Shown here in pieces: positions 16,247-19,744 of a stretch of DNA of 64,000 bases. The stretch spans positions 1-64,000 of the forward strand of contig JAJYJM010000002.1 in the NCBI GenBank assembly GCA_021789495.1, given 5' to 3'. Both the position numbers and the translations under genes were made by a program. How positions within the stretch are numbered: the first letter of the stretch is position 1; each line of letters begins with the position of its first letter. The DNA comes from Nitrospirota bacterium. Lineage in GTDB: Bacteria > Nitrospirota > JACRHJ01. The notes under the pieces are model-generated. The model did not search any database. It saw only the letters and a program-made list of their open reading frames with translations, and was not told the DNA's origin.

Positions 16247-17776
16247 TTACCTGACCACCCCGATACGCCCGTCCTCGGCAAGCCCGTCAACTGTCCCGCC
16301 CATCGCCGATACGCGAGAGAGATAATCCACGACGTCTTTCGTAATCACCTCTCCGGGGACGAGCATCGGTATTCCCGGCGGATAAACCGTAACAATCTCG
16401 GAGGAGAGTCTGCCCGCACACTTATCGAGCAGGACAAGCTCGTGCGCCGCAAAGAACGCTTCCCTGGGAGATCTGTCGCCCGGCTGCGGCCCGTCGATGG
16501 GTTTCGGGCCGTCCGCTATAGGAAATCCCTGCGGCGTTCCCATCGGCGGCTTGACCTGCTCCCAATCGAATTTTTTCGATGCGGGCGGTTGACCGCCCGC
16601 AGACGGTCTACCATCCGCAATCTTGTGGAGCGCATCGACGAGCCGCGACACGTCCTCCTTCCTGTCGCCTATCGAGACGATTACCAGGACGTGGAACGGG
16701 TCCGCCATCTCCACCTGTATGTCGTGCTCCATGTTCAGGGCCTGCGATACCTGGTACCCCGTCATCCCCAGCCCGCTTACGTTTATCGCAAGCTTTGTCT
16801 CGTCTAAGTCTCCCATGCCGCGCAGCAGGACGTCTTTTTTCTCCAGGCACCGGAATCCCTCTGTCCCGTTAATCTCCCCCCGCGCCCATCTGGCAAGCGT
16901 GAGCGCCTTGGAAAGCAGTTTCTCTCCCTCGGTGGCCATTTGCATTCTTGCCAAATCGAGCGAGGCCATGAGGATGTACGACGGGCTTGTTGTCTGCAGG
17001 ACCTTCAGCACGCCCGCGAGCGTCATAACGTCCACGCGCCCGGCCCTCGCGTGCATCATGGACGCCTGCGTCATGCCGCCGATTATCTTGTGCGTGGACT
17101 GCACGACCATGTCCGCGCCGCACGAAAGCGCGGACTTCGGAAGCTCCGGGTGGAAGCCCAGGTGCGGCCCGTGCGCCTCGTCCACGAGCACAGTCATGCC
17201 GCGCCCGTGCGCGAAAGGGATGATTCTCTCTAAGTCTGCGCAGATGCCGTAGTAGTTCGGCGATGTAATGACCAGCACCTTTATCTCCGGCGCCGCGCTC
17301 TCCACCGCCTGCCGGACGGAATCGAACGTGACGTTCATGGACATCATGAGTGCGGCGTCCATCACGGGGTAGATGAACTGCGTCCGTGCGCCTGCGAGTA
17401 TCGCGCCCGCCAGGACGGACTTGTGGCAGTTCCGGGCCGCGAGGATGCCGTCGCCCGGGTTGCACACGGTCATAATCATCGCGTGGTTGCCTACCGTCGT
17501 GCCGTTTAAGAGGAAGAAGGAGCGGTCGGCCCCGTATGCCTTGGCGGCGAGTTCCTGAGCCTCCTTTATTACGCCGGTCGGCTTCTGGAGGCTGTCAACT
17601 TCGTCGAGCGTCGTTAAGTCGATGGAGAATATGTTCGGCCCGACGTATTTCACAAAACGCGTGGCGATTCCCTTGCCGGACTTGTGCCCCGGCGTATGGA
17701 AGGAAATCTTCCGCGATTCGGCCAAGGAAACCATCGCGTCGAAGAGAGGGGTCTTATACTGGGAGGGGTCGGGCAT
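16247..17776 (-). CDS. Orn/Lys/Arg decarboxylase (group III PLP, biosynthetic arginine decarboxylase type)
   Basis: FHTPGHKSGKGI; FFLLNGTTVGNHAMIM; VLVDEAHGPHLGFHPELPKSALSCGADMVVQSTHKIIGGMTQASMMH; C-terminal domain YPPGIPMLVPGE. Confidence 0.93.
   Translation of the reverse strand: MPDPSQYKTPLFDAMVSLAESRKISFHTPGHKSGKGIATRFVKYVGPNIFSIDLTTLDEVDSLQKPTGVIKEAQELAAKAYGADRSFFLLNGTTVGNHAMIMTVCNPGDGILAARNCHKSVLAGAILAGARTQFIYPVMDAALMMSMNVTFDSVRQAVESAAPEIKVLVITSPNYYGICADLERIIPFAHGRGMTVLVDEAHGPHLGFHPELPKSALSCGADMVVQSTHKIIGGMTQASMMHARAGRVDVMTLAGVLKVLQTTSPSYILMASLDLARMQMATEGEKLLSKALTLARWARGEINGTEGFRCLEKKDVLLRGMGDLDETKLAINVSGLGMTGYQVSQALNMEHDIQVEMADPFHVLVIVSIGDRKEDVSRLVDALHKIADGRPSAGGQPPASKKFDWEQVKPPMGTPQGFPIADGPKPIDGPQPGDRSPREAFFAAHELVLLDKCAGRLSSEIVTVYPPGIPMLVPGEVITKDVVDYLSRVSAMGGTVDGLAEDGRIGVVR
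16581..16600. repeat. Palindromic element variant (GCGGGCGGTTGACCGCCCGC), inside the decarboxylase
   Basis: 9-bp arms around TG, followed by AGACGGTCTACC. Confidence 0.6.
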
Positions 17777-17777
17777 G

Positions 17778-18188
17778 TTAGCTTTCGTAACGCCCCCCCT
17801 GCCCCCCTCTTAACCCAAGAGGGGGGTTAAGGAAGACATTAATTTTTTCAAAAATATCCTCGGCGTCTTCAAGAACTTCATTGTTGGAAAACCGCAGTAC
17901 TTCAATTTTGAGTTCTTTTAAGTATTCCGTACGCTCCGCATCATATATTTTATTGTCGGTGTCGTTGTGATGACCGCCGTCTAATTCTATGGCAAGTTGT
18001 ATCGATGGACAGTAAAAATCCAGGATATACGGACCAACGCTGTATTGACGATAAAATTTTAAATTTTGAAATTGCTTTTCTCTCACGTAAGACCAAAAAA
18101 TCCTTTCCGCCTCCGTTTCTTTGTGGCGTAATTCTTTTCTGCGCTGTTTCAGGATTGGGTCGTTTCTAAGGGGTTTCATATTTTTCAT
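17778..18188 (-). CDS. DUF559 (Vsr-like endonuclease fold) protein
   Basis: LRHKETEAERIFWSYVREKQFQNLKFYRQYSVGPYILDFYCPSIQLAIELDGGHHND: DUF559 signature. Confidence 0.9.
   Translation of the reverse strand: MKNMKPLRNDPILKQRRKELRHKETEAERIFWSYVREKQFQNLKFYRQYSVGPYILDFYCPSIQLAIELDGGHHNDTDNKIYDAERTEYLKELKIEVLRFSNNEVLEDAEDIFEKINVFLNPPLGLRGGQGGRYES
17783..17832. repeat. C-rich palindromic repeat, left copy flanking DUF559 gene
   Basis: TTTCGTAACGCCCCCCCTGCCCCCCTCTTAACCCAAGAGGGGGGTTAAGGA. Confidence 0.85.
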
Positions 18189-18231
18189 AACGCCCCCCTT
18201 CCCCCCTCTTACCTTAAGAGGGGGGTATAGG
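18181..18231. repeat. C-rich palindromic repeat, middle copy (supplies DUF559 start region)
   Basis: TTTTTCATAACGCCCCCCTTCCCCCCTCTTACCTTAAGAGGGGGGTATAGGAAG, direct orientation to left copy. Confidence 0.85.
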
Positions 18232-18271
18232 AAGTTGGAATTTATATATATGTTAATTCAATTTTTTTTCC

Positions 18272-18322
18272 CTAATCCCCCTCTTGGGTTAAGAGGGGGA
18301 CAGAGGGGGCGTTACGAAAAAT
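18272..18322. repeat. C-rich palindromic repeat, right copy in inverted orientation
   Basis: CTAATCCCCCTCTTGGGTTAAGAGGGGGACAGAGGGGGCGTTACGAAAAAT: reverse complement matches left copy. Confidence 0.85.
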
Positions 18323-18335
18323 CTCAGCCGCATCA

Positions 18336-18364
18336 GTAGGGGCCGACCCATGTGTCGGCCCTAA
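18336..18364. repeat. Short intergenic palindrome
   Basis: AGGGGCCGACCCATGTGTCGGCCCTA hairpin. Confidence 0.6.
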
Positions 18365-18367
18365 TGT

Positions 18368-18736
18368 TTAAGGCAACAAGGGTCTTTTATCTATATTTAA
18401 ATCCGCCCTCATAGCAGCTGATAGCTCATTTCCTGCTTCATGTCTTTCGGGTGTATTTGGTTCAGTATTAGCGAATCTTTGCGCAGAGCGTATTACCATA
18501 GGAGAGCCAACCATCTCTACTCTTCCTTCCCAATATCCATATGCCATTGCAGTTTCATCATTATGAACTACGGCCGCATTAAAAATAGCTTGTTGCAAGC
18601 CTACGTATGCTTCGCGTTTCTCAATGAACGCACGGTATTCCAATGCACTTTTTTTATTTAAAAGAGATTGAACAAATGTGGTTAATAAACTACCTAAGCC
18701 TAAACCTCCAAAAAGAGGGAAAACCCACTGTGTCAT
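18368..18736 (-). CDS. Hypothetical protein with N-terminal TM segment
   Basis: MTQWVFPLFGGLGLGSLLTTFVQSLLNKKSALEYRAFIEKREAYVGLQQAIF; AT-rich. Confidence 0.5.
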   Translation of the reverse strand: MTQWVFPLFGGLGLGSLLTTFVQSLLNKKSALEYRAFIEKREAYVGLQQAIFNAAVVHNDETAMAYGYWEGRVEMVGSPMVIRSAQRFANTEPNTPERHEAGNELSAAMRADLNIDKRPLLP

Positions 18737-18760
18737 AAGTCACCTTACTTATTTTTAAAT

Positions 18761-18823: not shown

Positions 18824-19744
18824 CTAATTATACGTAAATATCGGCGCGTTGTCCTCGATGATGATGGTCTGCTCTTCGATGGCCTTGCGGACGTATTTCG
18901 GCAGGTGCATGAGGTGCCGGTGGGCCTCGCCGTCGTAATACTTAAGCTCGCCCGCGACGCGCTGGGCAATCATCTTGTCGATGGCCTCCGCCGTGAGCTT
19001 CTTCGGGTCGTTCTTTTTGGATGCGAGCGCGAAGCCCCAGGGAAGCCCGAAGGAGGGTATCGCCGCGGGCATGGAGACGACGTGCGGAAACACCTGCTGA
19101 AGGGTCTTGTGGACGGCGGTAAGGTTCAGGAGCTTGCCGTTGGCGGTAGTCCCGGCCTGTAGGGCTATCGTCCCCTCGTCCGTCAGGCGGTCCCAGACGA
19201 GCTTGTAGAACTCACGGGTATACAGGAGATACGCCGGGCCTTCCTCGACCGGCTCGGATATGTCTATGATTATTACGTCGTATTTTTTGTCGTTCTCTTC
19301 AAGCCACCTGCGGGCGTCGGTGAAGGCCAATTCCGTGCGCTTATCGTGAAACGCCCCGGCGTGGTATTCCGGCAGGAGCTCCTCGGACATCCGCACGACC
19401 TCTTCGTCGATGTCCACCATCAGGCAGTGGTTTACGGTCTTGTGCCGCAGGACTTCCCGAAGCGTCGCGCCCTCGCCGCCGCCGACGATGAAGACGTCCT
19501 TAGGCGCCGGATGCAGGAGCATTGCGGGGTGAACGAGCACCTCGTGGTAGATGAACTCGTCCACCTCGGAGGACTGCATCTTCCCGTCCAGGACGAGACA
19601 GTGTCCGTACGACCCCGTCTCCATTATTTCCATCGCCTGGAACTTCGTCTGCCCGCTGTAGAGCGTCTTTTTGATACCGTGTATATGACCCTCTTCCGGG
19701 GTCAGGTAATCAATGAACCACTTGGAGTTTTTGGCCTGCGTCAT
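18824..19744 (-). CDS. speE: Spermidine (polyamine aminopropyltransferase) synthase
   Basis: TLYSGQTKFQAMEIMETGSYGHCLVLDGKMQSSEVDEFIYHEVLVHPAML...VFIVGGGEGATLREVLRH. Confidence 0.95.
   Translation of the reverse strand: MTQAKNSKWFIDYLTPEEGHIHGIKKTLYSGQTKFQAMEIMETGSYGHCLVLDGKMQSSEVDEFIYHEVLVHPAMLLHPAPKDVFIVGGGEGATLREVLRHKTVNHCLMVDIDEEVVRMSEELLPEYHAGAFHDKRTELAFTDARRWLEENDKKYDVIIIDISEPVEEGPAYLLYTREFYKLVWDRLTDEGTIALQAGTTANGKLLNLTAVHKTLQQVFPHVVSMPAAIPSFGLPWGFALASKKNDPKKLTAEAIDKMIAQRVAGELKYYDGEAHRHLMHLPKYVRKAIEEQTIIIEDNAPIFTYN

Follow-up and report, generated by a model that had tools for sequence, protein, structure and literature searches.

A DUF559 gene bracketed by REP-like hairpin repeats: a candidate family of mini mobile elements

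Related repeat and nuclease systems and the window locus

Rickettsia palindromic elements (RPEs) are palindromic elements inserted in frame in protein-coding genes. Some RPEs have been equated with the CGTC-tagged REPs, a set of palindromic families for which no dedicated transposase is known (PMC3733652). The DUF559 locus described here shares with the REP/RAYT systems (REPtrons, REPINs) short dispersed palindromes, a single gene flanked by element copies, what appear to be autonomous and non-autonomous copies, and intergenic sites that are often interchangeable with those of REPs. It differs from them in its enzyme, which is predicted to be EDxHD/Vsr-like and not an HUH Y1 transposase, in its consensus CCTTCATC-hairpin-GACAGAGGGGGCGTTATGAA, which bears neither a GTAG nor a CGTC tag at the base of the hairpin, and in the G-tract tail that follows the hairpin. 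The system works like REP/RAYT but, having no HUH enzyme and neither of the two tags, is not a member of it. The CGTC REPs also differ from the DUF559-associated element in sequence and stem, having stems of 8–9 bp with AT at the base and a CGTC end. As with RPEs, in-frame palindromic inserts are found in HrpA, ValRS and MetH (in genomes other than that of the window), but the DUF559 insert additionally contains a putative nuclease ORF, and its repeats are unrelated in sequence to the GTAG and CGTC types.

On the side of the enzyme, the EDxHD homing endonucleases, whose exemplar is I-Bth0305I with its catalytic domain solved as 3R3P (PMC3943268), offer the nearest comparison, and a DUF559 gene has been placed in this family (PMC9403480). 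A profile search with DUF559 matched 3HRL, an endonuclease-like protein of N. gonorrhoeae (4e-39), and 3R3P (1.3e-5). The same two structures were matched by an AlphaFold2 model of the window's DUF559 protein (pLDDT 85.7), for which Foldseek gave E = 3.4e-4 and a TM of 0.75 by target against 3R3P, and a weak match (E = 0.14) to E. coli Vsr. Residues E68, D70, H74 and D83 are invariant in DUF559 alignments of 13 and 27 sequences and would represent the EDxHD catalytic residues, an assignment made by pattern and not by a superposed active site. I-Bth0305I is alike in sequence, catalytic-domain fold and E-D-H-D residues, but it has a long DNA-binding extension (PMC3943268) that the window protein lacks. 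In contrast to known EDxHD homing genes, the window's DUF559 gene was seen in no intron or intein and goes with a multicopy palindrome, not with one homing site. Filled and unfilled sites of the DUF559 cassette both exist. With regard to the terminal inverted repeats of a classical insertion sequence, the window has a 52-nt outer inverted pair, but the orientation of the nearest copies varies between loci.

The first-pass annotation had regarded the function of DUF559 as not established; besides the EDxHD-type assignment (PMC9403480), Caulobacter VsrA, a protein with a DUF559 domain, is implicated in VSP-type repair (PMC12907096), so that the domain is not wholly uncharacterised. Vsr and VsrA resemble the window protein in having a related nuclease fold, whereas VsrA differs in its repair role, and the passage describing this role mentions no repeats (PMC12907096). 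Legionella segments with DUF559 have been described as recombination hotspots (PMC12308824).

The locus lies in the window, the whole stretch of 64,000 nt that was analysed (Table 1). Three repeat copies had been described in it from the letters alone, the outer two inverted and the third direct to the left one, with the DUF559 ORF beginning in the middle copy and ending through the left copy, and all of this was confirmed. The outer pair (17783-17834 and 18268-18319) forms a 52-nt inverted repeat that is 92% complementary, copy 2 is in direct orientation to copy 1 (86% identity over 42 nt), and copy 3 is inverted with respect to both. The tail of copy 2 points into the gene and contains its start codon, while copy 1, whose own tail points away from the gene, codes for the C-terminal tail NPPLGLRGGQGGRYES of the ORF, the stop lying just past the repeat. 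The core palindrome CCCCTCTT-N5-AAGAGGGG occurs at 17804, 18203 and 18278, compared with 0 occurrences in shuffled 64-kb windows. When folded as single-stranded DNA, the copies tested give strong hairpins, at -12.1 to -13.3 kcal/mol and with z of -2.8 to -4.1. What Rfam matched at the repeats were sub-threshold microRNA hairpins, taken as chance. A small ORF at 18368-18736 on the minus strand (122 aa) has no match in Pfam or NCBIfam; as part of the segment missing from the sister genomes, it may have come in along with the DUF559 cassette.

Table 1. Features of the DUF559 locus, with positions counted along the window
Feature	Position	Strand	Remarks
DUF559 gene (136 aa), predicted small EDxHD/Vsr-like nuclease	17778..18188	-	Pfam PF04480 match (E = 1.3e-31); invariant residues D57, E68, D70, H74, D83, R99
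Repeat copy 1	17783..17834	-	hairpin (core 17804-17824) + G-tract + tail CGTTACGAAA
Repeat copy 2	18180..18234	-	hairpin (core 18203-18223) + G-tract + tail CGTTATGAAA
Repeat copy 3	18268..18322	+	hairpin (core 18278-18298) + G-tract + tail CGTTACGAAA
Left neighbour, Orn/Lys/Arg decarboxylase	16247..17776	-	conserved in sister genomes; site anchor
Right neighbour, spermidine synthase	18824..19744	-	conserved in sister genomes; site anchor
Segment missing at the orthologous site of sister genomes G002 and G003	17780..18756	.	holds cassette and small ORF 18368-18736

The repeat unit and its association with DUF559

The host genome (2.08 Mb in 53 contigs) holds 28 copies of the repeat core, against 0 of a reversed control pattern, and only one DUF559 gene. 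Alignment of the host copies delimits a sharp-edged unit, CCTTCATC-CCCCTCTTAAGATAAGAGGGG-GACAGAGGGGGCGTTATGAA, which is about 50 nt long, conservation dropping to near zero outside positions -9 to +40. The general plan of the element is a pyrimidine arm, a loop, a purine arm, a spacer of 2–5 nt, a second G-tract and a short tail such as GTTATGAA. One tail is present in 19 of the 26 host copies analysed and a tail on both sides in the other 7; in the two-tailed copies (e.g. L002 and L004) the palindrome is thereby extended to about 60 nt. All congeners examined contain many copies each, and when the repeats of G000 were compared with 1.96 Mb of the sister genome G002, several were shared and several missing at the orthologous place, with element boundaries blurred by 10–15% divergence. 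The earlier proposal of a minimal element bounded by its own repeats is supported, with two corrections. The repeat is a dispersed element of about 50 nt, the DUF559 locus being a special case among its copies, and the window's outer pair with outward tails does not represent the commonest layout, in which the tails point toward the DUF559 gene.

In the window's phylum an element was found within 220 nt of DUF559 in 23/23 loci, on both sides in 20, whereas GIY-YIG control loci from the same genome set had one in 0/22 (p = 2.4e-13); the elements bracketing the DUF559 loci examined there share their architecture and differ in sequence. A broader sample, obtained by a scan of named genomes, comprised 80 DUF559 loci, 71 of them analysable, from about a dozen phylum-level groups as labelled by record titles; the 80 are the loci nearest to the query among at least 539, and the sample thus covers the nearer DUF559 branches. 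Here an element lies within 220 nt of DUF559 in 66/71 loci and on both sides in 45, elements being 38-fold denser close to DUF559 (4.96 per kb) than in the remainder of these loci (0.13 per kb). The tail of the nearest copy is turned toward the gene rather than away from it at a ratio of 50:7 upstream and 37:17 downstream (71-locus sample). The element finder was built after examples had been inspected, and the controls were run with identical code. Independently of this finder, an inverted-match score across the gene of at least 30 was reached by 70% of DUF559 genes versus 1.4% of 509 neighbouring genes (p = 1e-31).

At the genome level, hits of a degenerate palindrome pattern were compared with those of a composition-matched reversed control in 41 genomes scored for DUF559, with G015, which has two short matches at the cut-off, treated as DUF559-negative. 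Among genomes at least 90% complete, an excess of repeats over the control was seen in 15/15 DUF559-positive versus 2/18 negative genomes (p = 1.5e-7), and DUF559 copy number followed repeat excess with a rho of 0.85, presence/absence being blurred by MAG incompleteness. Another 43 genomes with DUF559, drawn from many phyla, gave 1116 pattern hits versus 134 for the control. Some DUF559 genomes, for instance several of Pseudomonas, contain few pattern copies, and in G012 repeats are present and a DUF559 match is absent. The first-pass annotation had left it to be seen whether DUF559 genes elsewhere carry such repeats and whether the link goes beyond chance, and both turned out in its favour, at individual loci and in the repeat load of whole genomes. 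Two genomes of the window's phylum carry expansions of both partners, G028 with 13 DUF559 matches (truncated ones included) and 224 pattern hits and G005 with 3 matches and 305 pattern hits, and offer a natural series for studies of turnover.

Distinct repeat classes (CCCCTCTTA.., CCCTCTCCC.., CCCCCTTT.. and CCCCTCCTT..) each turn up in different phyla, and for locus pairs from different phyla the similarity of DUF559 predicts the similarity of the repeats (r = 0.384, n = 66 loci, p < 0.001), a value that exceeds all 2000 permutations (sd 0.046, maximum 0.151). Either specific recognition or a cassette that is transferred whole would account for this covariation, and both imply that gene and repeat travel together. 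It also bears on the idea that DUF559 is a passenger, the repeats being moved in trans by an unrelated transposase of the RAYT or IS200/IS605 type and flanking DUF559 by chance. The movement of REP elements in trans by RAYTs is a precedent for such an arrangement (PMC3733652), and one Y1_Tnp gene is present in the host genome; however, no repeat copy lies around this single match, and a host RAYT was rejected as driver of the repeats. Given in addition that DUF559 covaries with both the type and the number of repeats, and that a passenger would not be expected to come from a single gene family across about a dozen phyla, we think it quite unlikely that DUF559 merely rides along.

Occupied and unoccupied sites

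The decarboxylase/spermidine synthase site is without DUF559 in the sister genomes G002 and G003, whose DUF559 genes lie elsewhere. Other sequence takes up about 430–450 nt of it in the one and 42 nt in the other; the spacer differs, and neither an exact insertion boundary nor a duplication was found there. At one Pseudomonas site, the cassette is missing in 11 aligned species, flanking repeats without DUF559 are present in four (G052, G102, G119 and G130), and repeats together with DUF559 are present in four (G059, G116, G132 and G136). In several cassette-free Pseudomonas species the sequence at this place resembles the classical Pseudomonas REP, and in three of the four genomes with repeats only, long matches to the cassette occur at other places. 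Judged from the aligned sequences, the three states correspond to the autonomous/non-autonomous pattern that would be expected of a mobile unit. Of the empty sites and target duplications envisaged in the first-pass annotation, the former do exist as orthologous sites without the cassette, but no clear target-site duplication was found at the window site, the G000/G002 copies or the Pseudomonas site, and no exact insertion boundary was established at the sites compared.

In E. coli, the DUF559 gene ycjD (L139, L149) lies between sapF and fabI, with related elements adjoining, and at least 80% of the ycjD query locus is present in 3365 of 5426 genomes. The inspected strains without ycjD carry an MFS-transporter gene beside sapF and were set aside as uninformative with regard to a clean empty site. 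The 'Box C' repeats of E. coli were first noted near envM (fabI). The pepA-holC and zntA-tusA sites of E. coli are polymorphic. At pepA-holC (L277 versus L279-L281), a DUF559-type repeat is found in some strains and a different palindromic repeat in others, this alternative allele leaving no clean insertion boundary, and the same alternation is seen between species at the Pseudomonas site (L083 versus L321-L333). The alternation gives the impression that different palindromic elements contend for sites of a single class. That one site in each of these groups holds either type of repeat would also suit an explanation by chance or by common insertion hot spots, in which DUF559 genes and palindromes favour the same intergenic positions. 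This reading is already disfavoured by the GIY-YIG genes of the same genomes (0/22) and the neighbouring genes (1.4%), and by the lack of a repeat excess in most DUF559-negative near-complete genomes (excess in 2/18). Cassettes within genes, moreover, keep their repeats, and we give the explanation hardly any credence.

Such intragenic cassettes were found in genomes other than that of the window. E. coli HrpA has a 148-aa in-frame cassette insert at residue 245, where a possible 2-residue AP overlap might reflect a target-site duplication, and further in-frame inserts occur in ValRS, MetH, a GHMP kinase, HsdM and HsdR, two HsdM inserts, of Mariprofundus and Methylomonas, being at the same position. 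The repeats brought along by these inserts translate stop-free (SPLPxGEGxG, PSPxGRGxGxR). Because several of the genes concerned are restriction-modification genes, and because PADLOC returned weak matches of DUF559 to mREase_II and DpdF (E about 1e-6), DUF559 might be seen as a restriction-like defence nuclease, with the repeats as recombination handles that move the gene among sites. We regard this as very improbable, since DUF559 is equally found inside ValRS, MetH, HrpA and a GHMP kinase, lies between polyamine genes in the window, and is far outnumbered by repeats spread genome-wide beyond its loci. The in-frame copies inside unrelated host genes, and a gene that comes and goes with the repeats at one Pseudomonas site, are likewise not expected if DUF559 serves Vsr-like genome maintenance as a nuclease that repairs DNA or resolves hairpins and the repeats are its recognition or processing sites, gene and sites being kept together functionally and the repeats spreading by other means; nor need a repair enzyme lie inside its own sites. 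Such a role would suit the Vsr-like fold neighbourhood of DUF559 and the VSP-type role ascribed to Caulobacter VsrA (PMC12907096), and the tight co-occurrence of DUF559 and repeats would follow from it as well, so that we consider it unlikely but worth keeping in mind.

Proposed mechanism and further occurrences

In our view DUF559 is probably a small EDxHD/Vsr-like nuclease of the homing type, one that accompanies a family of REP-like palindromic elements of about 50 nt and most likely drives their spread. The candidate nuclease-driven or homing-type element of the first-pass annotation gains support, and the homology to I-Bth0305I fits the homing type. The DUF559 gene flanked by element copies would be the autonomous form, and solo or paired elements elsewhere would be non-autonomous derivatives acted on in trans. 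The nuclease would recognise its element, either in duplex form or extruded as a hairpin, and would cut or nick the DNA there, close by or at a target. Repair by recombination or replication would then place a copy of the element, or of the entire cassette, in the break, with the outcome that the element would spread in trans and the DUF559 gene in cis. The structure and dispersal of the element, its association and covariation with DUF559, the presence/absence polymorphism and the in-frame insertions can be read directly from the genomes, and we infer recognition, cutting, copying and movement by DUF559. The variable orientation of the copies around the gene counts against a DUF559-driven process, as do the failure to find a clear target-site duplication, the low-copy DUF559 genomes together with the repeat-bearing, DUF559-free G012, and the VSP-type repair role of the Caulobacter protein (PMC12907096); the sampling of loci nearest to the query counts against its generality.

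More tentatively, and with less than even confidence, we hypothesize that these repeats are mobile palindromic elements of a previously unrecognised class, present in some dozen bacterial phyla or more, which would be propagated by DUF559 (EDxHD) and not by HUH transposases and would insert in frame even into essential genes. The pairing of DUF559 with hairpins has the look of a family of mini mobile elements that is widespread and, it seems, undescribed, and no description of it was found among the open-access papers covered (subscription papers and preprints being outside the scope of the search). Many bacterial genomes contain scattered short C/G-rich palindromes, and the link of one large set of them to one nuclease family makes the origin of such repeats testable. 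It also provides a likely substrate for DUF559, a widespread domain of unknown function that includes E. coli YcjD. The unit can bring a nuclease domain into essential enzymes in frame, leaving the reading frame intact, and with three alternative alleles at a single Pseudomonas site and ycjD in E. coli, the system is testable in laboratory strains.

The second G-tract mirrors the purine arm of the hairpin, with T at A positions (AAGAGGGG/GGGGAGTT, GGGAGAGGG/GGGTGAGGG, AAAGGGGG/GGGGGATTT and AAGGAGGGG/GGGGTGGTT), and tails fit their own purine arm better than permuted tails do (7.25/8 versus 6.32, sd 0.06), a score that is inflated by the kinship of elements within a class and is only suggestive. 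Mirroring by the G-tract and covariation with the purine arm are what a fold-back purine-motif triplex would require, and it is conceivable, if rather doubtful, that the element is recognised through such a DNA structure, with the G-tract folded back on the purine arm.

A search of phage records with DUF559 gave 2 matches only, and an E. coli search with the Erwinia DUF559 gene gave no match. On a Klebsiella pneumoniae plasmid (L141), a decayed DUF559 frame lies beside an intact-looking CCCTCTCCCC..GGGGAGAGGGTTAGGGTGAGGGG element. Two related Picosynechococcus plasmids (L143 and L144) carry a DUF559 gene between clusters of CCCCCGATTCGGGGG repeats, with differing sequence beside the gene.
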